64,000 nucleotides of DNA, taken from assembly GCF_017794765.1 (NCBI RefSeq), contig NZ_CP051236.1:790780-854779 (forward strand). Reading direction: 5' to 3'. This document shows, piece by piece, positions 2,193-12,441 of the stretch (within the stretch, counting starts at the first letter, position 1; each line of letters begins with the position of its first letter). The notes under the pieces were generated by a model. The model searched no databases, was not told the origin of the DNA, and worked only from the letters and a program-made list of their open reading frames with translations. The translations under genes were made by a program, and so were the position numbers. Source of the stretch: Nitratireductor sp. GTDB taxonomy: Bacteria > Pseudomonadota > Alphaproteobacteria > Rhizobiales > Rhizobiaceae.

Positions 2193-2675
2193 ATGAACAA
2201 ACGCACACGCACTTTGGCTGCCGGCGCTACCCTGGCGATTTTGATCGCAACGGGTGTTGCCAACGCCACTCCCGTCAGCAATGGCAAAACGATCGCGGTT
2301 TTCAAGACGCCCTGGTGTGGCTGTTGCGAAGTCTGGGTTGAGGCTTTGCAGAAGGCTGGTTTCGAAATGAAGACGACTGACCTGGAAGACCTTGCCGGTG
2401 TCAAGAAGCAGGCCGGTGTGCCAGCTGATCTCGAAGCCTGTCATACGGCGGTTATAGAGGGGGAGCGCAAATACGTTCTGGAAGGGCACGTACCTATTGA
2501 AGCCTTGGAAAAGCTCCTGTCGGAGAGGCCGGACGTCAAGGGGATCGCTGTTCCGGGCATGCCGTCGGGTTCACTCGGCATGGGGTACGATCCGGACGCG
2601 CGTTATACGGTCTATTCCTTCGATGGGAGTCCGGACCGAACGCCTGGCGTGTTTCTTGAAACCGGCATCAAATAG
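2193..2675 (+). CDS. DUF411 periplasmic metal-binding protein
   Basis: The 160-residue protein has an N-terminal signal peptide ending near ATGVANA, then a DUF411 domain. The diagnostic element is the thioredoxin-like opening VFKTPWCGCCEVWVEALQ, with a CxCC Cys cluster, followed by a conserved Cys-His (ACHTAV) and the C-terminal GMPxGSLGMG segment. Family members are periplasmic and are usually found next to copper resistance or cytochrome oxidase genes, where they are thought to bind metal; a catalytic activity is not established. Here the only companion is the small Cys-containing exported protein upstream. A strong hairpin follows the stop codon. Confidence 0.88.
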   Translation: MNKRTRTLAAGATLAILIATGVANATPVSNGKTIAVFKTPWCGCCEVWVEALQKAGFEMKTTDLEDLAGVKKQAGVPADLEACHTAVIEGERKYVLEGHVPIEALEKLLSERPDVKGIAVPGMPSGSLGMGYDPDARYTVYSFDGSPDRTPGVFLETGIK

Positions 2676-2748: not shown

Positions 2749-3528
2749 TCAGCGTTGCAGTAGATCGCCGCCATTGCTCGTGAACAGATTGGATACCTTG
2801 TAGGCGGCTTCGGTCCGATTGGTCGCCTTCAGTTTCTGCATGATGTTTCGAATGTGAACCTTCACGGTGCTCTCGCACATGTTGAGCTCGTAGGCGATGA
2901 TCTTGTTGGGTTTGCCCTGCCAGATCGCTTCTGCCACCTGGATCTGGCGCGGCGTAAACATCTCTGTCAGGCGCTGGTCATGCGTGGCGTCGCCATTGAT
3001 AACCTCACGCATCGCGAAGACCGTGCTGGCGGGAACGAATACCCCGCCGGCAAGCGCGAGGTTTATGGCTTCGACACAAACCTCGACACTTACCGACGAA
3101 GGTATATAGCCCCGCACGCCATAATCGAGAGCATTGACGATCTGCACCACATCATCTCGATCGGCGAGGATGATCAGCGGAGCCGGTCCGGACAGTTTGA
3201 TGGTTTGTCTGATCAGCTCCTCCATGTGGGATTCCACGATGTTCGCGGATCCCACATGGAGGAGCACAGCGGCCAGTGGAGGATGCCGGTCCGCTTCAGT
3301 CTGCCATTCTTCCATCGTGCTGCAGGCGACCACATCCCAGGGAGCCGGATGGGCTGCCAGGCTGCTGCGCAGGCACTCACGTGCCAGAATGCGCTCGTCT
3401 ATGAGGACGACCGACCCCTTTTGCGCGAGCACGCGGCTGGAAGTTGTCCTGACCGGGTCGCGGAGAGCTCGTTCTGCCGGCCTACCCGGGCCGTGGGAGG
3501 ATGCGGTACAAACTGATAAGGCCGCCAT
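2749..3528 (-). CDS. LuxR-type response regulator with degenerate receiver
   Basis: The 259-residue protein has an N-terminal extension of about 38 residues, a receiver-like domain (about 39-160) and a C-terminal LuxR helix-turn-helix (FTPRQIQVAEAIWQGKPNKI onward, about 190-250). The acidic pair is D44-E45, and the position 47 residues later, where the phospho-acceptor Asp should be, is His91 (VLLHV). The protein therefore probably does not accept phosphate in the usual way, and may respond to another signal or act constitutively. No histidine kinase lies nearby. A perfect inverted repeat overlaps the His91 codon. The start at 3528 has a weak ribosome-binding site, and a later start (near 3410) is possible. 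It is divergent from the adenylate cyclase gene, so they may share control. Confidence 0.85.
   Translation of the reverse strand: MAALSVCTASSHGPGRPAERALRDPVRTTSSRVLAQKGSVVLIDERILARECLRSSLAAHPAPWDVVACSTMEEWQTEADRHPPLAAVLLHVGSANIVESHMEELIRQTIKLSGPAPLIILADRDDVVQIVNALDYGVRGYIPSSVSVEVCVEAINLALAGGVFVPASTVFAMREVINGDATHDQRLTEMFTPRQIQVAEAIWQGKPNKIIAYELNMCESTVKVHIRNIMQKLKATNRTEAAYKVSNLFTSNGGDLLQR
3216..3265. repeat. Perfect 17-bp inverted repeat inside the receiver coding region
   Basis: The arms are 3216-3232 and 3249-3265 (core GCTCCTCCATGTGGGA and its exact reverse complement), with a 16-base spacer. Both arms are coding on the minus strand. One arm encodes the segment containing His91, at the expected phosphorylation site; the other encodes ESHMEEL. 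A perfect palindrome of this length inside a coding sequence is not expected by chance and may mark a template-switch event or a structured mRNA element. Confidence 0.9.
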
Positions 3529-3753
3529 GTCGAAAACCCGCCGTTTCTCGTCAAGATTGCTCTGCTAACGGACGGCAGATTAAGCATGTCAGCATGTGAC
3601 TTCTGTGAAATTGGCTACACTTGCTAATAGAGAGTCTCCTCAGCCGCGTAACAACCCAACTGTGCCGGCAAACAGACCGATGCTCTTCATGGTTGCCCGA
3701 ACCTTTGTGCGGGGCTACGCTGCGGTTTCTTGAGGGGCACCAACAGAAAAACA

Positions 3754-5532
3754 ATGTCCGAGGGGCAATACACCCGACAGGTCACGACGATCGCATCGAT
3801 TGATGCGGTCGGATTCTCGCGCCTGATGGGGATCGATGACGAATTCGCGGTGGCCGCATTCGAGGAGCGGCGGTCGATCATCGCCGACAGCTGCGATGCT
3901 GCTGGTGGACGAACGTTTGGCGCCGCCGGCGACAGCATCATGGCGGAGTTCGGAACGCCGATTGATGCGTTGCGCGCAGCCTTCGATTTTCAGCAACGGA
4001 TCATCCAGCTCAATGACCGTGTTCCCGGGGATCGTCGCATGCCGTTCCGGGTCGGTATCAACACGGGCAACGTGATTGTTCGTGGTCCGAGCCTTTATGG
4101 CGATGACGTCAACATAGCTGCTCGTATCCAGGAACTGGCGCCGACAGACGGGCTTGCGATCTCCGAAACCACCTGGAACCATGTGCGGGACAAAGTTGCC
4201 GCCAGCTTCACCGATCTCGGGGAACAACGATTGAAGAACATCGCCCTTCCGGTGCGGATCTTCGTTGCGAGCCGGCGGGAAGGGGAACAGACAGAAATCG
4301 CGTCGGGCAGTTCGGTCGATCCGGCCGCTCCGCCCGCGGTCGCCGTTCTGCCGTTTCACAACGAAGCCGGAGCGCGGGAATTCGACTACGTCGCCGACGG
4401 TGTTGCAGAAGACATCATTCAGGGCCTTTGCAGCACGCGCTGGTTGCCGGTAATCGCGCGGGAATCGAGCTTTCAGTTTCGCGACAAGGCTCTGGGTGCT
4501 CGCATGACGGGCAGCGCCCTTGGTGCGCGCTACCTTGTCGATGGCAGGCTCGCACGCACGAGCGGTCATTTCGACCTCGTCATAACATTGACCGATGCTG
4601 CCAACGAACGGCTGGTCTGGTCGCGCGGCTTCCGCCGACCGCTCGATGAGGTTTCGCTGGTGAACGACGAGATCGGCGGCCAGATCGTCTCCATGCTGGA
4701 AAAGGAGGTGGAGAGGGTCGAGCAGGCGCGCACCTTTCAGGTGCCCTGGGAAAGCCTGGAGACATGGCAGCTCGTACGGCGTGCGCGCTGGCACATGCAG
4801 CGTCGCACTCGCGAGGACACGACGCTGGCACTGGACTGTCTGGACGAAGCGCGTCGGAAGGCTCCCAATTCCAGCGCCGTGCTCAACGAACTCGCTTGGT
4901 GGTATTTCTGGCGTGGATGGCTGCGCGCCGGAGCGGGTGACGATCTCGACAAGGTAACGGATTTCTCGCGCAGATCGCTTCTGATGGACAGTCAGGATGC
5001 CCGGCCTCACGCGCATCTCGGCGCTGTCGCGATCATGCGTGGACAGCCGAAGGCAGCAATCGAGCATCTGCATGAAGCACTTCAGATCAATCCCAGCTTC
5101 GCCTTTGCGCATTCGGTGATGGGAAGCGCGTATCTGCTGCTGGGTGAGGCTGGCACGGCCATTCCCCTGTTCAAGACGGCACGGCAGCTCAGTCCGTTCG
5201 ACATTTACGGATTTCATAATCTCGGAGAACTCGCCGCCGCCTGCTGCTTTGAGGGGCGGTGGGATGAGGCCATTGCGGCGGCAGAGGCGTCACTTGATCT
5301 TTCGCCGCGCTATTTTTACGCACGGTTTCTTAAGATAGGGGCGCTGGTGCGCAGTAATCGGTTGGAAGAGGCACGACGCGAGAAAGCGCTCTTCCACGCC
5401 TATCATCCCGATTTCTCGCTTGATCGAGTCGCATGGATCCCGTTCACGCAGAAGTCCGCGACCGCATTTCTCATCAGCAATTTCAACCTGGCCGACCAGA
5501 CCGGAGGTGCGATCGAAGCTGGCCGTGCGTGA
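3754..5532 (+). CDS. Class III adenylate/guanylate cyclase with TolB-like and TPR regions
   Basis: The 592-residue protein starts with a class III cyclase catalytic domain (about 10-175). Both metal-binding aspartates are present (D17 in SIDAVGFSR and D60 in GDSIMAEF), as is the transition-state pair N120/R124 in GDDVNIAARI, so it should be active, most likely making cAMP. Residues about 195-330 (VAVLPFHNEAG...) resemble the TolB/FlgO-like segment common in rhizobial cyclases. The rest is TPR-like helical repeats for protein interaction. I chose the ATG at 3754 over an in-frame TTG at 3730. The P450-peroxidase fusion follows after 72 bases on the same strand, so co-transcription is likely. 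A cNMP-domain regulator lies beyond it, suggesting a local second-messenger circuit. Confidence 0.9.
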   Translation: MSEGQYTRQVTTIASIDAVGFSRLMGIDDEFAVAAFEERRSIIADSCDAAGGRTFGAAGDSIMAEFGTPIDALRAAFDFQQRIIQLNDRVPGDRRMPFRVGINTGNVIVRGPSLYGDDVNIAARIQELAPTDGLAISETTWNHVRDKVAASFTDLGEQRLKNIALPVRIFVASRREGEQTEIASGSSVDPAAPPAVAVLPFHNEAGAREFDYVADGVAEDIIQGLCSTRWLPVIARESSFQFRDKALGARMTGSALGARYLVDGRLARTSGHFDLVITLTDAANERLVWSRGFRRPLDEVSLVNDEIGGQIVSMLEKEVERVEQARTFQVPWESLETWQLVRRARWHMQRRTREDTTLALDCLDEARRKAPNSSAVLNELAWWYFWRGWLRAGAGDDLDKVTDFSRRSLLMDSQDARPHAHLGAVAIMRGQPKAAIEHLHEALQINPSFAFAHSVMGSAYLLLGEAGTAIPLFKTARQLSPFDIYGFHNLGELAAACCFEGRWDEAIAAAEASLDLSPRYFYARFLKIGALVRSNRLEEARREKALFHAYHPDFSLDRVAWIPFTQKSATAFLISNFNLADQTGGAIEAGRA

Positions 5533-5604: not shown

Positions 5605-8600
5605 ATGACGACCACAAAATATTTTGATGGTGTGCGCGAGGCGCAGCGCGCTCAGGGACCCGTAGCCGACATGCCGCCGTTCGATATCGAGCGGATGCGG
5701 GCAAAGGGTTGGCGCGCCACACTCACGAGCCGCCTCCTTGAGAATCCGCGCTGGGCGCTCGGTCTGTTGCGACGGTTTCATCCGATTCTGAAGTTTGGGG
5801 GTCTCGTTCTCGTTACGCGCAGCGAGGATGTGCGCGAAATTCTCGAGCGTCAGGACGTGTTCCAGACCCCCTATGGTCTCGAGATGGCGGAGATCGCCGG
5901 GGGAACCAACTTCATTCTCGGCATGCAGGACGGTCCGGATTACCGGCGCATGAAATCGACCGTGTTGTCGGCCTTTCCGGTAGACGAGGTCGAAGATGTT
6001 GTACGCCCTATGGCCGCGCGGCACGCTTCGGCCATCATGCAACGCGCCGCCCCGCGTTTCGATGCGGTCGCCGGGCTTCTGCGTGTGGTTCCCGTCCGCA
6101 TCTGCCGCGAGTATTTCGGCATTCTCATTGATGATGAAGAGGCCTTCTCTGATTGGGCCAATGCTTTGAGCGGTTTGTTTTTTGCCGATCCCGCCGCCGA
6201 TCCTGTGACACGGGAACTGGCGGTCGTGGCCGCAGATCGCGTGCGGCGATCGATAGACCGATCGGTCATGGCGGTACGCGAGGGGAAGGTGGCAAACACC
6301 ACACCGCTTGGCCGGCTGGTCAGGATGCTCGATGCGCAAGAACCGCAGATCAGCCTCGGCGAGGTCCATGCGATCATGCTGGGCATGATTGCCGGTTTCA
6401 CGCCCACCAATCTGCTGGCGAGCGGCAATTGCCTGGACGTCGTGCTCTCCAGACCCGAGGCGCGCCGGGCCGTGGAAGAGGCCATTGCTGCGAAAGACAA
6501 TGCGCGTTTTGAACGGGCCATTCTTGAGGCAATGCGGTTCAAGCCCATCTGGATCGGTCCGTTCCGCTATGCGGCGCGCGATGCGGTGATCGCCAGAGGG
6601 ACACGCCGCGAACGGAAGATAAAAGCAGGCACCACGGTGATGCCCGCGACCCTTTCGGCCATGTTCGACCCGGCAGTGGTGAGTGAACCCGAGCGGTTCG
6701 ACACCGACCGCCCGGCGCGGGATTACATGGTGTTCGGTCATGGCATTCACCAATGCATCGGTGCTGCAATCGCCCGGATACAAATCGCTGAGTGCTTTCG
6801 CGCGCTGTTCTCAAAACCCGGGCTGCAGCGCGCCGGCGGGAAAGACGGGCGCTTGAAACGGCTCGGTGCCTATCCGGAAAGTCTGACGGTCTGCTTTGAT
6901 CCTGCGCCGCTTTCAAGGGCGGTCGAGCACGCCATGGTGACGGCTGTGATTCCCTGCGACAGGGACGCGCCGATGGACGCGTTGCGCGAAAGGGTCGATG
7001 GGCTGGGCAACCCGGCGGGAGAGGCGATTAAGAGCGCGCTGGACGCGAGTGGCATGATCCATTTCGCCAGCATCGCCGTGATCGACGGGCGAGGCGAGAA
7101 GGGGACGAACAGCGCCGGCCACCTCGTCATCGAGCTGTCAGGCGACGGCACGAAGGATCAGGTCGTGGATGCCTTTGTACAGGCGACCGAACCTGTTTTG
7201 TCGGAGCTCTTTGCCGTGGCGAGCGGAACGGGCGTGCATAAGCCGGCCGGTGTGCTTGTCCGTGACAATGCGCTCGACATCTCCCCCACTTTCGGCAGCA
7301 ACGCGGGACTTGTGTTTTCCGGCACACCTGGCCACTCCGTCCGGCGCATCCGGGCAGAAGCCGAGTTGGAAAAGGCCGCACGCGAAGAAATCGCGGCGGC
7401 ACCCGAGGGTGTCGAGGCTGGCGAAATTCTGGACAATGTCCGGCAGAAACTGGCCGACGACGGGCGTTTCCACTGGGCGTTCGAGCCTGCCGAAGCACTT
7501 CTCGAAAATCCAGCAGGCAACCTTGCCAACGCGGTGAAGCGGACATTGCGCGCGCCGAAGGTTCTGGTCACGGTTTCAGTGATCCTCCTCATCTGCCTCG
7601 CGATCACCTATTCGCTGGTGTTCGGATACGCGCCCGGCTTCTTTCGCAATCTCCTGATCGTGGGCACCTCCATCGTGCTTACTCTGATCGGTGTGACCAT
7701 GCTTCTGCTCTTCATCGTCGGGCTTTTGATCCTCTATTTGCGCCGCCTGGAAAAGCGCGATCCCCCGAGCGACGGGAACGCGAATCTGGCACTTCTGGAA
7801 GAGATCTCAAGGCGCGAGAACCATCTGGCACAAAACCATCTGACGGCGGTGTCCACGCTGAAGGGTGGTTGGCTGAGACGCCTTGCGCTTCGAACCTCCT
7901 TTTACCTGATCTCGATCATGGCTCGCCAGGTTTTTCGGCCGGGATACCTTTCCGATATCAACACCATCCACTTTGCTCGCTGGGTGCTCCTTCCGGGGAC
8001 GAAACAGCTTGTCTTCCTCAGCAATTATGGTGGCAGTTGGGAAAGCTATCTGGAGGATTTCATCACCAAGGCTCATGCCGGCCTGACCGGTGTCTGGAGC
8101 AATACCGCAGGCTTTCCGAAAGCGCGGATGCTGTTTTTCGACGGGGCGACCGATGGCGACCGCTTCAAGCGCTGGGCACGGGCACAGCAGGTGCCGACTC
8201 TGTTTTGGTACGCAGCCTATCCAGGCCTCACCACCGCGCGCATCCGCATCAACTCGCTGATCCGCAGCGGGATCGCGAAAGCGGAAACCGAAAGCGAAGC
8301 GCGCGACTGGCTGCGCCTCTTCGGCTCGCAGCCGCGCCCGCGCGATACGCTTGAAACGGAGGAGATCCAGTCGATCTTCTTCGGACCTCTTGGCCCGCTC
8401 GCAAAAGCGGAAATGATTGCCTTCCATATCCCGGCGGACCTGTCGCGCCCTGCGCGGCGGGAGTGGTTGGCATTCTTGCTCGAACGCACCAGCTTCGGCA
8501 ATCAGCTCCCGCCCGAGCGGGCCATGATCACCTTGTTCGGGCCGGATGGCTTGCGACGAATGGGGTTGGGAGACCGGCCGGGTGATGATTGTCTGGACGA

Positions 8601-9768
8601 ATTTCCGGCCGCTTTTCGGCAAGGCATGGCAACCGAGGCACGCAGTCGGGTTCTGGACGACATCGGCAAAAGCGCGCCGCAGCGCTGGCTCTGGGGCTCG
8701 CAGGAGAAGCCGGTCGATCTCGCGGTAATCTGCTATGCGCGTAGTTATGAAACACTCGATGCAGACATTCAGTCACTGATGGACGCCACGGACAAGGCCG
8801 GTGTGAAGCGCGTTGCCCAGCTCCCCCTCGAAATCAGGAGAGAGGGCAGGCATGCCGTCGAACATTTCGGTTTCGCCGACGGCATATCCCAGCCAATCGT
8901 GCGGGGCACGCCACGCGCCAGCGGGAGCACATCGTCGATGCACCTCATCGCGCCCGGCGAGTTCGTGCTTGGCTATCCGGATGAAAACAATTTCTATCCG
9001 CCCTCTCCAACGGTCTCCCCAGCCGAGGACAGCAAAGGAATACTCCCGGTAGTGGAAGCGGGAGCAGAAGCGCCGCTCTTCGGCAAGAAGGCAGCCCTGC
9101 GTGACTTCGGGCGCAATGGCAGTTTCATGGTGATCCGTCAGCTCGAGCAGCATGTTTCGACCTTCAATACCTATTGCCGGCATGCTGCCGAGACGGTGCG
9201 AGCCGAGACAGGCAATACCACGATCGATTCGAAATGGATCGCAGCCAAAATGGTCGGGCGCTGGCAGGACGGCACCTCTTTGGTGCGCAATCCAAATGGC
9301 CGCCCCGATCGCGAGCCGGACAACGATTTCACCTTCGCTGCAGAGGACCCGCAAGGGCTCCATTGTCCGCTGGGCTCTCATGTGCGTCGTTCGAACCCCA
9401 GAGACTCTCTCGGCGCCGACCCCGAGACCCAGCTCAAGATCAACAATCGCCATCGCATCCTGCGTTGTGGCCGAACTTATAAAAACGGTCAGGAAGCGGG
9501 CCTGCTCTTCATGTGCCTCAACGCCGATATCGAGCGACAATATGAATTCATGCAGCAAAGCTGGGTGTCGTCCTCCTTCTTTCAGGGGCTGACGGACGAG
9601 AAGGATCCAGCCATTGGCGCCAACGAGGGCAAAGGCAGTTTTTCTATCCCGATGGACGAGGGGCGTCTGATTTTGGATGATCTGCCAGGCTTCGTGACAA
9701 CTCGCGGCGGCGGCTATTTCTTTATGCCGAGCCGCTCGAGCCTGCGCTATCTCCTGTCCCGCTTGTGA
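5605..9768 (+). CDS. Cytochrome P450 - membrane hairpin - DyP-type peroxidase fusion
   Basis: This is one 1387-residue reading frame. Residues 1-440 form a cytochrome P450 with ExxR (E308-A-M-R311) and the heme-thiolate motif FGHGIHQCIG (Cys384). The I-helix reads A263-G-F-T-P-T-N, so the usual acid-alcohol pair is absent. Residues about 480-640 form an IHFA-type alpha/beta segment. About 653-710 holds two hydrophobic helices, which would keep both enzyme parts on the same membrane face. A second IHFA-type segment starts at 788. From about 920 to the end is a DyP-type peroxidase with GFADG (Asp1092), heme-ligand GSHVRRSNPR (His1259) and the RILR segment. The ATG at 5605 has a good GAGGGGAG site; a TTG at 5572 is the alternative. 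The substrate is unknown; lipid or other hydrophobic hydroperoxides are my guess. Confidence 0.9.
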   Translation: MTTTKYFDGVREAQRAQGPVADMPPFDIERMRAKGWRATLTSRLLENPRWALGLLRRFHPILKFGGLVLVTRSEDVREILERQDVFQTPYGLEMAEIAGGTNFILGMQDGPDYRRMKSTVLSAFPVDEVEDVVRPMAARHASAIMQRAAPRFDAVAGLLRVVPVRICREYFGILIDDEEAFSDWANALSGLFFADPAADPVTRELAVVAADRVRRSIDRSVMAVREGKVANTTPLGRLVRMLDAQEPQISLGEVHAIMLGMIAGFTPTNLLASGNCLDVVLSRPEARRAVEEAIAAKDNARFERAILEAMRFKPIWIGPFRYAARDAVIARGTRRERKIKAGTTVMPATLSAMFDPAVVSEPERFDTDRPARDYMVFGHGIHQCIGAAIARIQIAECFRALFSKPGLQRAGGKDGRLKRLGAYPESLTVCFDPAPLSRAVEHAMVTAVIPCDRDAPMDALRERVDGLGNPAGEAIKSALDASGMIHFASIAVIDGRGEKGTNSAGHLVIELSGDGTKDQVVDAFVQATEPVLSELFAVASGTGVHKPAGVLVRDNALDISPTFGSNAGLVFSGTPGHSVRRIRAEAELEKAAREEIAAAPEGVEAGEILDNVRQKLADDGRFHWAFEPAEALLENPAGNLANAVKRTLRAPKVLVTVSVILLICLAITYSLVFGYAPGFFRNLLIVGTSIVLTLIGVTMLLLFIVGLLILYLRRLEKRDPPSDGNANLALLEEISRRENHLAQNHLTAVSTLKGGWLRRLALRTSFYLISIMARQVFRPGYLSDINTIHFARWVLLPGTKQLVFLSNYGGSWESYLEDFITKAHAGLTGVWSNTAGFPKARMLFFDGATDGDRFKRWARAQQVPTLFWYAAYPGLTTARIRINSLIRSGIAKAETESEARDWLRLFGSQPRPRDTLETEEIQSIFFGPLGPLAKAEMIAFHIPADLSRPARREWLAFLLERTSFGNQLPPERAMITLFGPDGLRRMGLGDRPGDDCLDEFPAAFRQGMATEARSRVLDDIGKSAPQRWLWGSQEKPVDLAVICYARSYETLDADIQSLMDATDKAGVKRVAQLPLEIRREGRHAVEHFGFADGISQPIVRGTPRASGSTSSMHLIAPGEFVLGYPDENNFYPPSPTVSPAEDSKGILPVVEAGAEAPLFGKKAALRDFGRNGSFMVIRQLEQHVSTFNTYCRHAAETVRAETGNTTIDSKWIAAKMVGRWQDGTSLVRNPNGRPDREPDNDFTFAAEDPQGLHCPLGSHVRRSNPRDSLGADPETQLKINNRHRILRCGRTYKNGQEAGLLFMCLNADIERQYEFMQQSWVSSSFFQGLTDEKDPAIGANEGKGSFSIPMDEGRLILDDLPGFVTTRGGGYFFMPSRSSLRYLLSRL

Positions 9769-10464
9769 TCACTCGTCCTCCAGGTGGATGATTTCCTGCA
9801 GCCCGGCTCTGGAGATCAGTCTTATGGCGCCGCGTCTGATGGCGATGAGGTTCTCATTGCGCCAGGCGTTCAGCATCTTGTTGACGGATTCGCGCGTGGC
9901 GCCGAGAAAGGCGGCGAGCTCGGATTGGGAGATCCTGATCCAGCCACCATCTCCGGCGATCCTGTCATTGAGAAGCAGGAGGCGCTTGGCGAGCCGCGCT
10001 TCCACCTTGAGCAGCGCCTGATCATTGCGCTCATTGCTGATCCATCGCAACCGCGCACACAGGAGCTCGATCATCGCAAGCGACAATGAGGCGTCCTCCG
10101 CCAGCTTCCGCATCAGTTGCACGCGGCTCAGCGACACCAGCTCGCAATCGGTCAGGCAGATGGCGCTTGCGGTTCTGGCACCGCCGTCAAGGGCTCCGAT
10201 TTCGCCAATGAGGCTGCGTGAGAGCTCAATATTGGCGACCAGTTTCCGACCGCTGATGGAATAGCTGGAGATCTCCACCGTCCCCGAAAGTACACCGTAT
10301 ATGCGATCTGCCGGATCCTCATGCATGAAGAGATAGTCGCCCGCTCTGTAGCGCTCGGGCCGGCACTGACTGAACAGCATCTCAAAATGCGCAGGACACA
10401 GGTTGACCGTCTCCCTGGGCGAGGGGCTCGCTTGTGCGATCTGCGGCGTGTCCGTGCTGTCCAA
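9769..10464 (-). CDS. Crp/Fnr family transcriptional regulator
   Basis: The 231-residue protein has an N-terminal cyclic-nucleotide-binding fold (about 25-140: RYRAGDYLFMHEDPADRIYG, then LIGEIGALDGGARTASA) and a C-terminal Crp-type helix-turn-helix (ISQSELAAFLGATRESVNK). No Fnr-type N-terminal Cys cluster is visible, so oxygen sensing through Fe-S is unlikely. The LIGEIGALDGGARTASA segment resembles the phosphate-binding cassette of cNMP sensors, which fits the cyclase 4 kb away. The frame starts at a TTG (10464) with a poor ribosome-binding site, so the true start is uncertain and may lie closer to the domain. Its stop codon abuts the stop of the P450-DyP gene with no bases between. Confidence 0.88.
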   Translation of the reverse strand: MDSTDTPQIAQASPSPRETVNLCPAHFEMLFSQCRPERYRAGDYLFMHEDPADRIYGVLSGTVEISSYSISGRKLVANIELSRSLIGEIGALDGGARTASAICLTDCELVSLSRVQLMRKLAEDASLSLAMIELLCARLRWISNERNDQALLKVEARLAKRLLLLNDRIAGDGGWIRISQSELAAFLGATRESVNKMLNAWRNENLIAIRRGAIRLISRAGLQEIIHLEDE

Positions 10465-10854
10465 GAGATTTCACGCAGGCTGGCCAATGTTATTCTTGAT
10501 AATGATTTGCGCCGCTGTTTCCGTCAACGGAACAGGCGAGTGAGTGGAAAGCGATCTGCGCTCGATCATGCTTGCCGGTGCCCGGCGCGGAAGAAACAGA
10601 CTGAGCATTTGCACAGAAACGCCAAGACCGTTTCGGCCATGGGAATGCGTTGGGCATGGTGCCGCCCGGGCAGGATTTTTGGTAATTTCGTTTCAACGGA
10701 CAGTGCATCCTGGCGGGGATTCTTGCGCATTTCTTGCAACCTGAGGGAAAGGTGCCCAAAAGCGTTTGACGTATACGGAATTTCGTTGCCAAATGCCGCC
10801 TCTTTCATCCTTTGGTTGGATGACAAGCAAGCAAGAAAATGGGAGTGCGGGAAA
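10465..10854. other. Intergenic region between divergent crp-type gene and oppA
   Basis: This 390-base gap separates a minus-strand regulator from the plus-strand peptide-importer operon, so it must hold promoters for both. A TTGACG at 10766-10771 could be a -35 element for oppA, but no convincing -10 follows. A TTGAT at 10496-10500 has only a poor Fnr-like partner. I see no gene and no clear operator. Confidence 0.5.
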
Positions 10855-12441
10855 ATGTTGAAATCCCTGATGCGACCGCTGCTCGCGGGTACGATTCTGC
10901 TTTCTTCGGCAATGGCAGCGTCCGCCGTCACCTATGTGCGCGGCAATGACGGCGATCCGGAAACGCTGGACCAGCATAAGACCTCGACGGTTGTCGAGGC
11001 GCATCTTCTGCGTGACCTTTATGAAGGCCTCGTCGTTTATGACGCCAGCGCCAAGATCATTCCCGGCGTGGCCGAGGAGTGGACAGTTTCGGATGATGGC
11101 AGTGTCTACACATTCAAGCTGCGCGACGATGCCAAGTGGTCGAATGGTGACCCGGTCGTGGCCGGGGATTTCGTCTTCTCGCTCCGCCGTATCATGATGC
11201 CGGACACCGGCGCGAAATATGCCAACATTCTCTACCCGATCAAGAATGCAGAGGCGATCAACAAGGGCGAGATGGAGCCCGATCAGCTGGGCGTCAAGGC
11301 AGTGGACGAGCGGACGCTCGAGATCACGCTGGAGCAGCCAACCCCCTATTTCCTCGAACTCCTGACCCACCAGACGGGCCTGCCGGTCAACCCCAAGGCA
11401 GTTGAAGCGTACGGAACCGATTTCGTGGCGCCGGAAAACATCGTGACCAACGGCGCCTACAAGCTCGTATCTTTCCAGCCGGGCGACAAGATCGTCATGG
11501 AGAAGAACGAGAACTTCCACGACGCAGACAGCGTTCAGATCGACCGGATCGAGTATTTGCCGATCGAGGATCGCGCCACCTGCGTGCGCCGCTTCGAGGC
11601 GGGCGAAGTCCATAGCTGTTCCGACCTGCCGACCGAGCAGATCAAGTCACTCAAGGAGCGTCTTGGCGATCAGGTTCGGATCACACCCTATCTCGGCACC
11701 TACTACTACGCGCTCAACATGAAGCGCGAGGCAATGGCCGATTCCAAGGTGCGCCAGGCGCTCGCCATGGCGATCGATCGCGAGTTCCTTGGCGACGAGA
11801 TCTGGGCTGGCTCCATGTTGCCCGCCTATTCGCTGGTTCCGCCCGGCATCGGCAATTATGAAGGCGGCGGCGCTCAGGCAGAGTGGGCCGATATGTCCCC
11901 GCTCGACCGCGAGGACAAGGCCATCGAGCTGATGAAGGAGGCTGGCTTCGGCCCCGACAATCCGCTGACAGTCGAGCTGGCCTACAACAACTCTGAAAAC
12001 CACAAGAATACGGCGACCGCGATTGCCGACATGTGGAAGCCGCTCGGCGTCAATGTCGAATTCAACGTCCGCGATCTGTCGGCGCACTACGCCAATCTGC
12101 GCGATCAGAAGGACTTCGACGTGGCGCGTGCCGGCTGGATCGGCGACTACTCCGATCCGCAGAACTTCCTGTTCCTGGTCGAGAGCGACAACACCGGTTT
12201 CAACTACGCCCAGTACGAGAACCCGGAATACGACGCACTCATGGACAAGGCCGCGGCCGAGACCGATCTGGTCAAGCGTGCGGAGATCCTGCGTGAGGCA
12301 GAAGCGATGTTCATGGCAGACATGCCCTATATTCCGCTTCTCTTCTATTCGTCCCTTTCTCTGGTATCGCCCAAGCTCAAGGGCTGGGAAGACAACATCC
12401 AGAATGTTCATGGGACACGCTTCATGAGCATCAGCGAGTAA
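10855..12441 (+). CDS. oppA: Oligopeptide ABC transporter substrate-binding protein
   Basis: The 528-residue protein has a signal peptide (MLKSLMRPLLAGTILLSS...ASA) followed by an SBP_bac_5 (family 5) fold. Features matching OppA are the start NDGDPETLDQHKTSTVVEAH, the PGVAEEW segment, the VRQALAMAIDRE motif and the late RAGWIGDYSDP motif. It should bind oligopeptides in the periplasm and hand them to the permease pair encoded just downstream. The frame stays open far upstream to 10321, but the signal peptide and GGGAG at 10841 select the ATG at 10855. A stem-loop separates it from oppB. Confidence 0.93.
   Translation: MLKSLMRPLLAGTILLSSAMAASAVTYVRGNDGDPETLDQHKTSTVVEAHLLRDLYEGLVVYDASAKIIPGVAEEWTVSDDGSVYTFKLRDDAKWSNGDPVVAGDFVFSLRRIMMPDTGAKYANILYPIKNAEAINKGEMEPDQLGVKAVDERTLEITLEQPTPYFLELLTHQTGLPVNPKAVEAYGTDFVAPENIVTNGAYKLVSFQPGDKIVMEKNENFHDADSVQIDRIEYLPIEDRATCVRRFEAGEVHSCSDLPTEQIKSLKERLGDQVRITPYLGTYYYALNMKREAMADSKVRQALAMAIDREFLGDEIWAGSMLPAYSLVPPGIGNYEGGGAQAEWADMSPLDREDKAIELMKEAGFGPDNPLTVELAYNNSENHKNTATAIADMWKPLGVNVEFNVRDLSAHYANLRDQKDFDVARAGWIGDYSDPQNFLFLVESDNTGFNYAQYENPEYDALMDKAAAETDLVKRAEILREAEAMFMADMPYIPLLFYSSLSLVSPKLKGWEDNIQNVHGTRFMSISE

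Follow-up and report, generated by a model that had tools for sequence, protein, structure and literature searches.

A conserved single-chain P450–DyP protein with a membrane hairpin in Nitratireductor and its relatives, and its possible peroxide chemistry

Why should a cytochrome P450 and a DyP-type peroxidase be made as one membrane protein? The question is raised by a gene of Nitratireductor sp. that lies in the 64,000-nucleotide stretch of DNA analyzed here (the window). To our knowledge, the partners in natural P450 fusions are reductases or, in fungi, a dioxygenase, and the natural substrates of DyPs are mostly not known. Literature searches directed at a P450–DyP fusion found no account of one. 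The original prediction described a single frame of about 4.1 kb that joins the two enzymes through membrane helices, and its coordinates, frame and landmarks are all borne out. The frame opens with an ATG at 5605, closes with a stop at 9766–9768, has zero internal stops and encodes 1387 residues. The features discussed below are as follows.

3730–5532, plus strand: nucleotide cyclase with TPR repeats, just upstream (Pfam Guanylate_cyc and TPR)
5605–9768, plus strand: complete coding sequence, in the order P450, Fd1, membrane hairpin, Fd2, DyP
5605–6897, plus strand: cytochrome P450 domain, residues 1–431 (Pfam PF00067)
6391–6411, plus strand: I-helix AGFTPTN, residues 263–269
6526–6537, plus strand: ExxR, Glu308 to Arg311
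6754–6756, plus strand: Cys384, heme thiolate ligand by motif
6922–7479, plus strand: Fd1 ferredoxin-like module, about residues 440–625
7561–7749, plus strand: two-helix membrane hairpin, about residues 653–715
7807–8274, plus strand: Fd2 module with the SNYGGSWESYLEDF stretch, about residues 735–890
8317–9765, plus strand: DyP-type peroxidase domain, about residues 905–1387
8869–8883, plus strand: GFADG motif with the distal Asp1092
9379–9381, plus strand: His1259, proximal heme ligand by homology
9463–9465, plus strand: Arg1287, distal arginine by homology
9769–10464, minus strand: CRP/FNR-type regulator, convergent (Pfam cNMP_binding and HTH_Crp_2)

The original prediction had allowed for the case that close relatives carry two separate genes, the fusion then being a sequencing error, and had called for a search for homologs of the same domain order. 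We found 209 relatives and kept 80, of which 78 have both halves in one frame; the exceptions (L102 and L103) are both more distant relatives with two adjacent genes. The 15 fused P450s of the same domain order form one clade (support 98/95), and dN/dS, calculated for five parts of the chain with three relatives, is low in all five (0.036–0.254). Although the L102 and L103 lineages do have two genes, the 78 separate fused records, the fused clade and the low dN/dS rule out a chance join, and make an assembly or sequencing artefact exceedingly improbable. In-phase junctions with one stop between neighboring genes (L102, L103 and others) were counted by eye and occur at about chance level. Sites resembling promoters or terminators were roughly as frequent as in shuffles, and searches for Rfam families and tRNAs gave zero matches.

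The N-terminal half is a P450 by profile, model and fold. Pfam matches residues 67–396 (E 4.3e-13; 49.3 bits against a cut-off of 22.8), the AlphaFold2 model of this part has a mean pLDDT of 90.2 (83.5 for the rest of the chain), and its best Foldseek matches are solved P450s. The Cys384 heme motif and the ExxR pair, both recognized originally, are invariant, with Cys384, Glu308 and Arg311 each present in 36/36 aligned P450s, and together with the fold they place the domain in the P450 superfamily.

The C-terminal half is matched by Pfam Dyp_perox_C at residues 1170–1321 (E 9.4e-5; 22.7 bits, cut-off 20) and by the NCBIfam DyP superfamily model at 1034–1379 (E 9.7e-27, yet with 94.1 bits below the cut-off of 100.5). 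A PDB sequence search matched 8re3 (E 9.5e-44), and the best Foldseek match is the Deinococcus radiodurans DyP 8re2 (target TM 0.85). The GFADG motif and the proximal His1259, on which the peroxidase assignment had been based, hold up: Asp1092, His1259 and Arg1287, whose roles we take to be those of their counterparts in known DyPs, each occur in 45/45 aligned rows. Judged by sequence and modeled fold, this half is a D-type DyP. It shares fold, Asp, His and Arg with D. radiodurans 8re2/8re3, AauDyP and the DyP of 2d3q, but the solved chains of that type have about 390–490 residues and no P450, extra modules or hairpin.

The two membrane helices that had been placed near residues 653–710 are found by hydropathy in 45/45 rows, at 653–671 and about 683–712. 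The mean number of Lys plus Arg is 2.36 before the hairpin, 1.0 in its loop and 3.07 after it, and the hairpin would tether the chain to the membrane with its domains facing the cytoplasm. On either side lie Fd1 and Fd2, which were absent from the original prediction. Neither has a Pfam match, and the claim for them is limited to the ferredoxin-like look of the model, for Fd1 its secondary structure. Taken as repeats of each other, or as resembling the halves of the DyP, they gave at best 6.5% probability in the comparison. In L137, L140, L142 and L157, Fd1 and Fd2 occur together in a protein distinct from DyP; in L149, L150, L161 and other distant relatives, Fd2 is a small protein of its own adjoining DyP. 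Altogether, the evidence supports one genuine chain that carries a membrane hairpin and two heme-enzyme domains, each predicted to be heme-loaded.

What chemistry the P450 performs had been read from its I-helix, said to lack the acid–alcohol pair of O2-activating monooxygenases, as in P450s that rearrange hydroperoxides. Half of this description stands. The acid is absent, its position being taken by Pro267 in 36/36 rows of the within-family alignment, whereas the alcohol, Thr268, is retained in 36/36. We conclude that only the acid is lost, with Thr268 the alcohol, because relatives bearing Glu or Asp (L178, L181 and L182) align in the Pro267 column and their spacing to ExxR is equally 41 residues; in outgroup P450s it is mostly 36, versus 41 in the family. 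In HMMER's alignment with solved P450s, the register differs by one residue from that of the family alignment, and the acid is absent in either reading. A wider comparison, on a 41-row P450 set from which L144, L152 and L210 fall outside, has Pro at the acid position in 27 of 31 DyP-linked rows. The step from this motif to hydroperoxide rearrangement is not supported. Besides the retained Thr, EryK and TbtJ1, among the nearest solved sequences, likewise have no I-helix acid, and since EryK is an O2-dependent hydroxylase, loss of the acid is not diagnostic of lost O2 activation; the EryK case suggests that the acid is not essential for an O2-activating P450. Our domain is like the bacterial P450s near EryK (CYP113A1) and TbtJ1 (5vws) in fold, ExxR, Cys loop and acid-less I-helix, but these are chains of about 390–430 residues with no peroxidase fusion.

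The main rival to the peroxide-driven enzyme that we prefer is an O2-dependent monooxygenase with borrowed redox partners, whose ferredoxin and reductase would be encoded elsewhere, while the fused DyP clears leaked H2O2 or oxidizes the product further. We consider it rather unlikely, yet it draws on the retained Thr268 and acid-less EryK and TbtJ1, on L178, a DyP-linked P450 that keeps a D–T pair, and on the plasmid cassette L161. The latter encodes, in a row, a ferredoxin, an FAD reductase, a canonical P450 retaining E–T, a catalase-family protein, an Fd2-type protein and a DyP, and is the only cassette seen with an adjoining ferredoxin and FAD reductase. The L161 ferredoxin, used as a single query, gave no match elsewhere in 127 loci and none near the fused genes, which speaks against this rival. 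So do the Pro found in all 36 close rows and the P450s of L181 and L182, which belong to the same side of the P450 tree, have no DyP within about 9 kb and retain E–T; these three points, and the E–T pair of the one cassette with adjoining redox partners, also count for a peroxide-driven enzyme.

Alternatively, the P450 could be an H2O2-driven peroxygenase like CYP152, with the DyP working alongside on other reductants and lipid hydroperoxide uninvolved. The presence of a peroxide enzyme in the same chain and the altered acid site would fit. In CYP152, however, Arg-Pro replaces the acid–alcohol pair, and here residue 266, next to Pro267, is one of V, T, A, G and I in 36/36 rows and is never Arg, which leaves this alternative unlikely. 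PMC9112060 gives Arg245 of OleT a substrate-binding role. CYP152 and CYP74 enzymes use peroxides and have a modified oxygen-activating site (see PMC10813956). The 60 solved-sequence and 50 fold matches listed include none named CYP74, AOS, HPL or CYP152, though many carry just the name ‘cytochrome P450’.

A third alternative looks to the neighboring genes. A cyclase-TPR homolog lies upstream on the same strand in 75/81 loci, perhaps co-transcribed with the P450–DyP gene, and a CRP-type homolog is found in 71/81, a count from a rough gene prediction in which the window's own copy went undetected. TPR proteins also precede fused genes in L136, L158, L159, L207 and, together with BTAD, L099. The protein might serve less in metabolism than in sensing redox state or peroxide, its heme state or product feeding the upstream cyclase-TPR protein and the downstream CRP-type regulator. 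Against this, both sets of heme-site residues are completely conserved, co-location is no proof of signaling, and many of the loci are close relatives, so that the locus counts are not independent; we hold a sensor to be improbable.

In distant relatives, the modules are encoded as neighboring genes together with a second heme protein, and the identity of this partner changes. Among 28 module-found loci, it is a P450 in 11 and a catalase-related protein in 10; none has both, six have neither and one is at a contig end. Eight module hits are not among the 28. Four of the 24 other genomes with the module (G114, G229, G252 and G255, leaving 20 loci used) hold the same family as single frames of 1410–1542 residues, and G459, G337, G615 and G583:C3 had already been obtained via the P450 search; all of the latter have a P450, so the 28-locus count understates P450s. 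Of the 11 counted, the L144 P450 is below the Pfam cut-off, and in L210 the P450 and the DyP are read in different frames. Some of the loci counted with the catalase-related profile had also served to build it; L211 was excluded from the profile. Row A3 was not used. The C-terminal part of the L211 DyP chain looks P450-like by eye and has no Pfam match. In the reverse direction, a search with the family P450 profile showed that 6/11 P450s outside the own genome adjoin or are joined to a DyP.

Lipid genes accompany some of these loci. Patatin and FadL genes adjoin split cassette L150, with same-cluster genes in L152, and an LCAT gene adjoins split cassette L178, whose P450 retains the acid–alcohol pair. 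Acyl-CoA dehydrogenase and MaoC genes lie near a Novosphingobium fusion, the one case behind lipid links at fused genes. Neither the own genome nor three genomes of the same genus gave a match to lipoxygenase or to an animal-type heme dioxygenase.

How does the protein compare with other two-enzyme systems? CYP102A1 and CYP116B are self-sufficient natural P450 fusions likewise, but their partner domains are electron-feeding reductases, versus a peroxidase here. In the fungal fusions, the dioxygenase is N-terminal to the P450. Here the P450 is N-terminal, a hairpin lies between, and by Pfam and fold the partner is a DyP, not the cyclooxygenase-type (animal-type) heme dioxygenase of the fungi, so our protein is not of the fungal type. 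The parallel drawn originally survives in its layout, one chain with two hemes of which one is a P450, and not in its partner family. PMC13049297 lists the fungal fusions as DOX-LDS, DOX-AOS and DOX-EAS and calls their P450 self-sufficient so far as current knowledge goes. The (V/A)PxT stretch of fungal 9S-AOS resembles our motif, but this resemblance was rejected: as we read PMC13049297, the residue before Pro is axial there, while here Pro precedes Thr, and the positions mismatch. Coral catalase-related AOS/HPL proteins are fused to lipoxygenase, according to PMC5617202. They resemble our DyP-adjacent cassettes in pairing a catalase-related heme protein with a second oxidative enzyme, and differ in having lipoxygenase where ours have DyP and in that five of eight catalase-related rows here have Asn where three have His.

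Our preferred reading, held tentatively, is a membrane-bound, peroxide-driven two-heme enzyme that probably acts on lipids. It keeps the self-contained, membrane-bound hydroperoxide enzyme of the original prediction as far as the one-chain, two-heme-domain protein goes, and drops its I-helix argument. The DyP domain would react with peroxides, and the P450 domain would most likely use H2O2 or an organic hydroperoxide, probably a lipid one, in place of O2 and ferredoxin. One heme might make or consume a peroxide or radical for the other to rearrange or reduce, in a self-contained peroxide-processing unit with presumed transfer between hemes. The hairpin would keep both hemes at the inner membrane face, near putative lipid substrates, possibly under control of the neighboring cyclase. 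Peroxide chemistry gains support because the DyP residues are intact, catalase-related proteins replace the P450 in other cassettes, and lipid genes adjoin two split cassettes; the conserved hairpin, with flanks on average richer in Lys and Arg than its loop, also appears to favor a membrane enzyme. Against it count the retained Thr268 in a motif that is non-diagnostic, the D–T pair of DyP-linked, LCAT-adjacent L178, the company that the L161 DyP keeps, the absent lipoxygenase and dioxygenase matches in four genomes, and the six cassettes with neither partner.

A bolder and unlikely extension is that such proteins are the bacterial counterpart, from unrelated parts, of the fungal and mammalian dioxygenase plus P450 oxylipin systems. 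The DyP would make a lipid radical or hydroperoxide at the membrane, and the P450, elsewhere the catalase-related protein, would rearrange it with no need of redox partners; cyclic nucleotides may control the process. The DyP is given the dioxygenase's role because the genome has no lipoxygenase or animal-type dioxygenase match.

Many related bacteria keep the P450–DyP join, and comparison of their sequences hints at a shared peroxide chemistry, perhaps on lipids. The conserved fusion, with its catalase-related swap in sister cassettes, would model two hemes in series on peroxides and would give one group of DyPs a cellular role. It would also open a direct way to ask if Mesorhizobium, Nitratireductor and similar bacteria produce or detoxify oxylipins.

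The P450 and the DyP peroxidase are encoded by one gene, in whose frame all the P450 and DyP landmarks named in the original prediction were found. Pfam finds a P450 domain between residues 67 and 396 and the C-terminal DyP domain between 1170 and 1321, and the NCBIfam DyP superfamily model matches residues 1034-1379 with 94.1 bits, below its cut-off of 100.5. Two AlphaFold2 models were built, one from 36 P450 rows (alignment A1) and one from 45 rows of the remaining chain (A2), with mean pLDDT values of 90.2 and 83.5, respectively. Foldseek matched the first to bacterial P450s and the second to D-type DyPs, the best being 8re2 from Deinococcus radiodurans (target TM 0.85, 27% identity). Neither Fd1 nor Fd2, the two ferredoxin-like modules of the chain, matched a Pfam family at E 0.1.

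Window 5605-9768, plus strand: P450-DyP fusion gene, single frame of 1387 residues
Residues 1-431: P450 (Pfam, AlphaFold2 model, Foldseek)
Residues ~440-625: Fd1, ferredoxin-like module (AlphaFold2 model)
Residues 653-671: membrane helix 1
Residues ~683-712: membrane helix 2
Residues ~735-890: Fd2, second module (window 7795-8280 in A5, an alignment of Fd2-type proteins)
Residues ~905-1387: DyP

Both hydrophobic stretches are present in 45/45 rows, and the mean count of K+R is 2.36 before them, 1.0 between them and 3.07 after them, with single rows deviating. Given these counts and the positive-inside rule, by which K/R-rich flanks of membrane helices face the cytoplasm, both enzyme halves would lie on the cytoplasmic side.

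The source genome (3.7 Mb) has a listed completeness of 86.1%, and the closest named relatives of the fusion protein are Nitratireductor records. We found 209 relatives and kept 80 (their loci carry L numbers, genomes G numbers). P450 and DyP sequence share one frame in 78 of these, including L028 and L087, which are cut by contig ends; the fusion is therefore genuine and not a join created by sequencing error. In the other two, L102 (Bradyrhizobium) and L103 (Bauldia), P450 and DyP are encoded by separate neighbouring genes. Among nine other genomes searched of the same genus, four carry the fusion, which in G005 is spread over two contigs. Comparison of the window with three relatives gave dN/dS values of 0.036-0.254 in five parts of the gene. 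In a maximum-likelihood tree of 41 P450s, the 15 fused rows with the same domain order form one clade (support 98/95), and the nearest group to it is L102 plus L103, with identical gene order (support 94/90, under the tool's star). L183, from a genome of the same class, encodes a single chain in the opposite order, DyP then P450 (713-3757, minus strand; both domains by Pfam), with an Fd2-type gene upstream; given its reversed order, it is a separate fusion event of the same two families. L210, close to a contig end in G688, has P450 sequence and the DyP chain overlapping but read in different frames (7783-11649 and 10719-11660, both minus strand); a fusion broken by a frameshift or a faulty assembly may explain this.

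The heme sites are strictly conserved, with Cys384, E308 and R311 of the P450 unchanged in 36/36 rows and Asp1092, His1259 and Arg1287 of the DyP in 45/45. In the I-helix, Pro267 is unchanged in all 36 rows, while residue 266 varies (V 17, T 6, A 6, G 5, I 2). The same columns of a wider alignment read GGIETT in L181, GAVETT in L182 and GAVDTT in L178, and the spacing from I-helix to ExxR is 41 residues in these three and in the window alike, from which we read Pro267 as occupying the former acid position, with the Thr kept. The loss of the acid-alcohol pair proposed in the original prediction thus holds for the acid but not for the alcohol, Thr268 being retained in 36/36 rows. Among 31 DyP-linked rows of the wider set, which include L211 although the kinship of its P450 is doubtful, 27 carry Pro at residue 267; of the other four, L178 has Asp there and L139, L183 and L211 have Ala or Gly. 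At residue 268, Thr occurs in 26 rows, whereas L138, L157, L179 and L180 have Gln and L211 has Ala. The P450 of L161, DyP-linked but grouping with the outgroup, has E-T. For nine P450s of this set no DyP link was found (a wide-flank DyP check covering L181, L182, L184 and L185); the acid position holds E or D in seven and V in two (L184, L185). The HMMER alignment to EryK and TbtJ1, two solved bacterial P450s, was shifted by one residue, so that Pro faced Thr; both proteins likewise lack the acid. EryK is an O2-dependent hydroxylase, and because this acid-less enzyme uses O2, the I-helix motif suggests a changed chemistry without demonstrating one.

Of 398 genomes in the phylum, 25, including our own, matched a profile of the chain middle (A4). 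In distant relatives, the parts are adjoining genes: small ferredoxin-like proteins or a joined Fd1-Fd2, a DyP and often a P450. Across 28 such cassette loci (20 of the 24 other A4 loci plus eight new ones), the partner is a P450 in 11, counting L144 (below the Pfam cut-off) and L210 (P450 in another frame), and a catalase-related protein in 10; none has both, six have neither, and one ends before any DyP. The 28 exclude four loci of the same family whose single frames span 1410-1542 aa, as well as L176, L178, L179 and L183, which were obtained via a P450 search and all have a P450. Eight proteins from such loci, seven of them within the 28, served to build the catalase-related profile, which matched L147, L151 and L213 beyond its training set. 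Pfam indicates catalase kinship for L148 (E 6.9e-8) and, below the cut-off, L161 (7.3e-5); the remaining proteins were assigned by mutual similarity, those of L137, L140, L145 and the L142 chain having no Pfam match. In the reverse direction, searching 385 genomes with the P450 profile (E 1e-30) returned 11 matches outside our own genome, six of them adjoining or joined to a DyP.

Several further features of these families were observed. In A6, catalase-related proteins beside DyP carry either Asn (L137, L140, L142, L206, L209), in the stretch GNTKTHG or GNTKTYG, or His (L145, L148, L161), in HAK. Fd2-type proteins (A5, 20 rows) make up a family that occurs next to DyP in several groups of bacteria, including Nostoc, with near-invariant His and Arg in an IHxARW-like stretch. 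Two Rhizobium plasmids carry an Fd1-Fd2-DyP chain (L156:5824-8817, L160:5026-8115), near which no P450 or catalase-related gene was found; heparin lyase and DNA/RNA endonuclease genes lie near both, and L156 additionally has an endonuclease/exonuclease/phosphatase-family gene and a CHAT gene.

On a Methylorubrum plasmid, L161:1740-7713 encodes a ferredoxin, an FAD reductase, the canonical P450 with E-T, a catalase-family protein, an Fd2-type protein and a DyP. This cassette adjoins an ISL3 transposase. Plasmids of Methylobacterium, Sphingobium, Novosphingobium, Terrarubrum, Agrobacterium, Shinella and Roseomonas gave matches with 27-28% identity to the same part of the query and may carry the same cassette. 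With the L161 ferredoxin as sole query, a search at E 1e-4 through 127 loci and the first 20 kb of the window returned only the protein itself. The reductase query found flavoprotein-like frames in 21 Mesorhizobium loci, at least 3.3 kb downstream, and a single one in L068. L162 has a gene annotated as a (2Fe-2S)-binding protein, next to a molybdopterin gene and ~5 kb away from the DyP.

The gene upstream of the fusion, on the same strand, encodes a nucleotide cyclase with TPR repeats (Pfam). Beyond it lie two further genes:

Window 2193-2675, plus strand: DUF411 protein
Window 2749-3528, minus strand: LuxR-type regulator

Homologues of the cyclase-TPR protein were grouped on the whole protein, and the L099 member matches TPR and BTAD but not the cyclase family. 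Of the 81 loci (window plus 80), 75 have such a homologue upstream, in most cases 30-145 bases away from the crude start; two of the other six start at the end of a contig. In 71/81, a convergent CRP-type gene lies downstream, as judged by a crude gene caller that overlooked the copy in the window. Because many of the 80 loci come from closely related Mesorhizobium, these neighbour counts are not independent. A LuxR-type homologue occurs in 13/81 loci. Lipid-linked neighbours were noted in individual annotated loci, those of most other fused genes being clustered only: L150 has genes for patatin and a porin of the FadL type, its congener L152 has neighbours from the same clusters, L178 adjoins LCAT, and a Novosphingobium fusion has acyl-CoA dehydrogenase and MaoC genes upstream.

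Neither a lipoxygenase nor an animal-type heme dioxygenase was matched in the source genome or three same-genus genomes, which speaks against a simple oxylipin pathway; of ten fusion-bearing genomes, one has a lipoxygenase match and three an An_peroxidase match (one below cut-off). Any hydroperoxide would either come from outside or autoxidation or be made by the DyP, or else the P450 uses none. No account of a P450-DyP fusion was found in open PMC titles and abstract openings, a search space mostly outside subscription journals and preprints, so novelty is not proven. The fusion belongs with the known two-heme chains that contain a P450. Its architecture and conservation, the site residues, the cassette and the partner exchange are established, and we infer the topology, that heme is loaded and that the P450 uses peroxide, along with the substrate, transfer from one heme to the other and regulation. 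The reading we favour is a membrane-bound enzyme in which two hemes would act in series, driven by peroxide, with lipids as the likeliest substrates.
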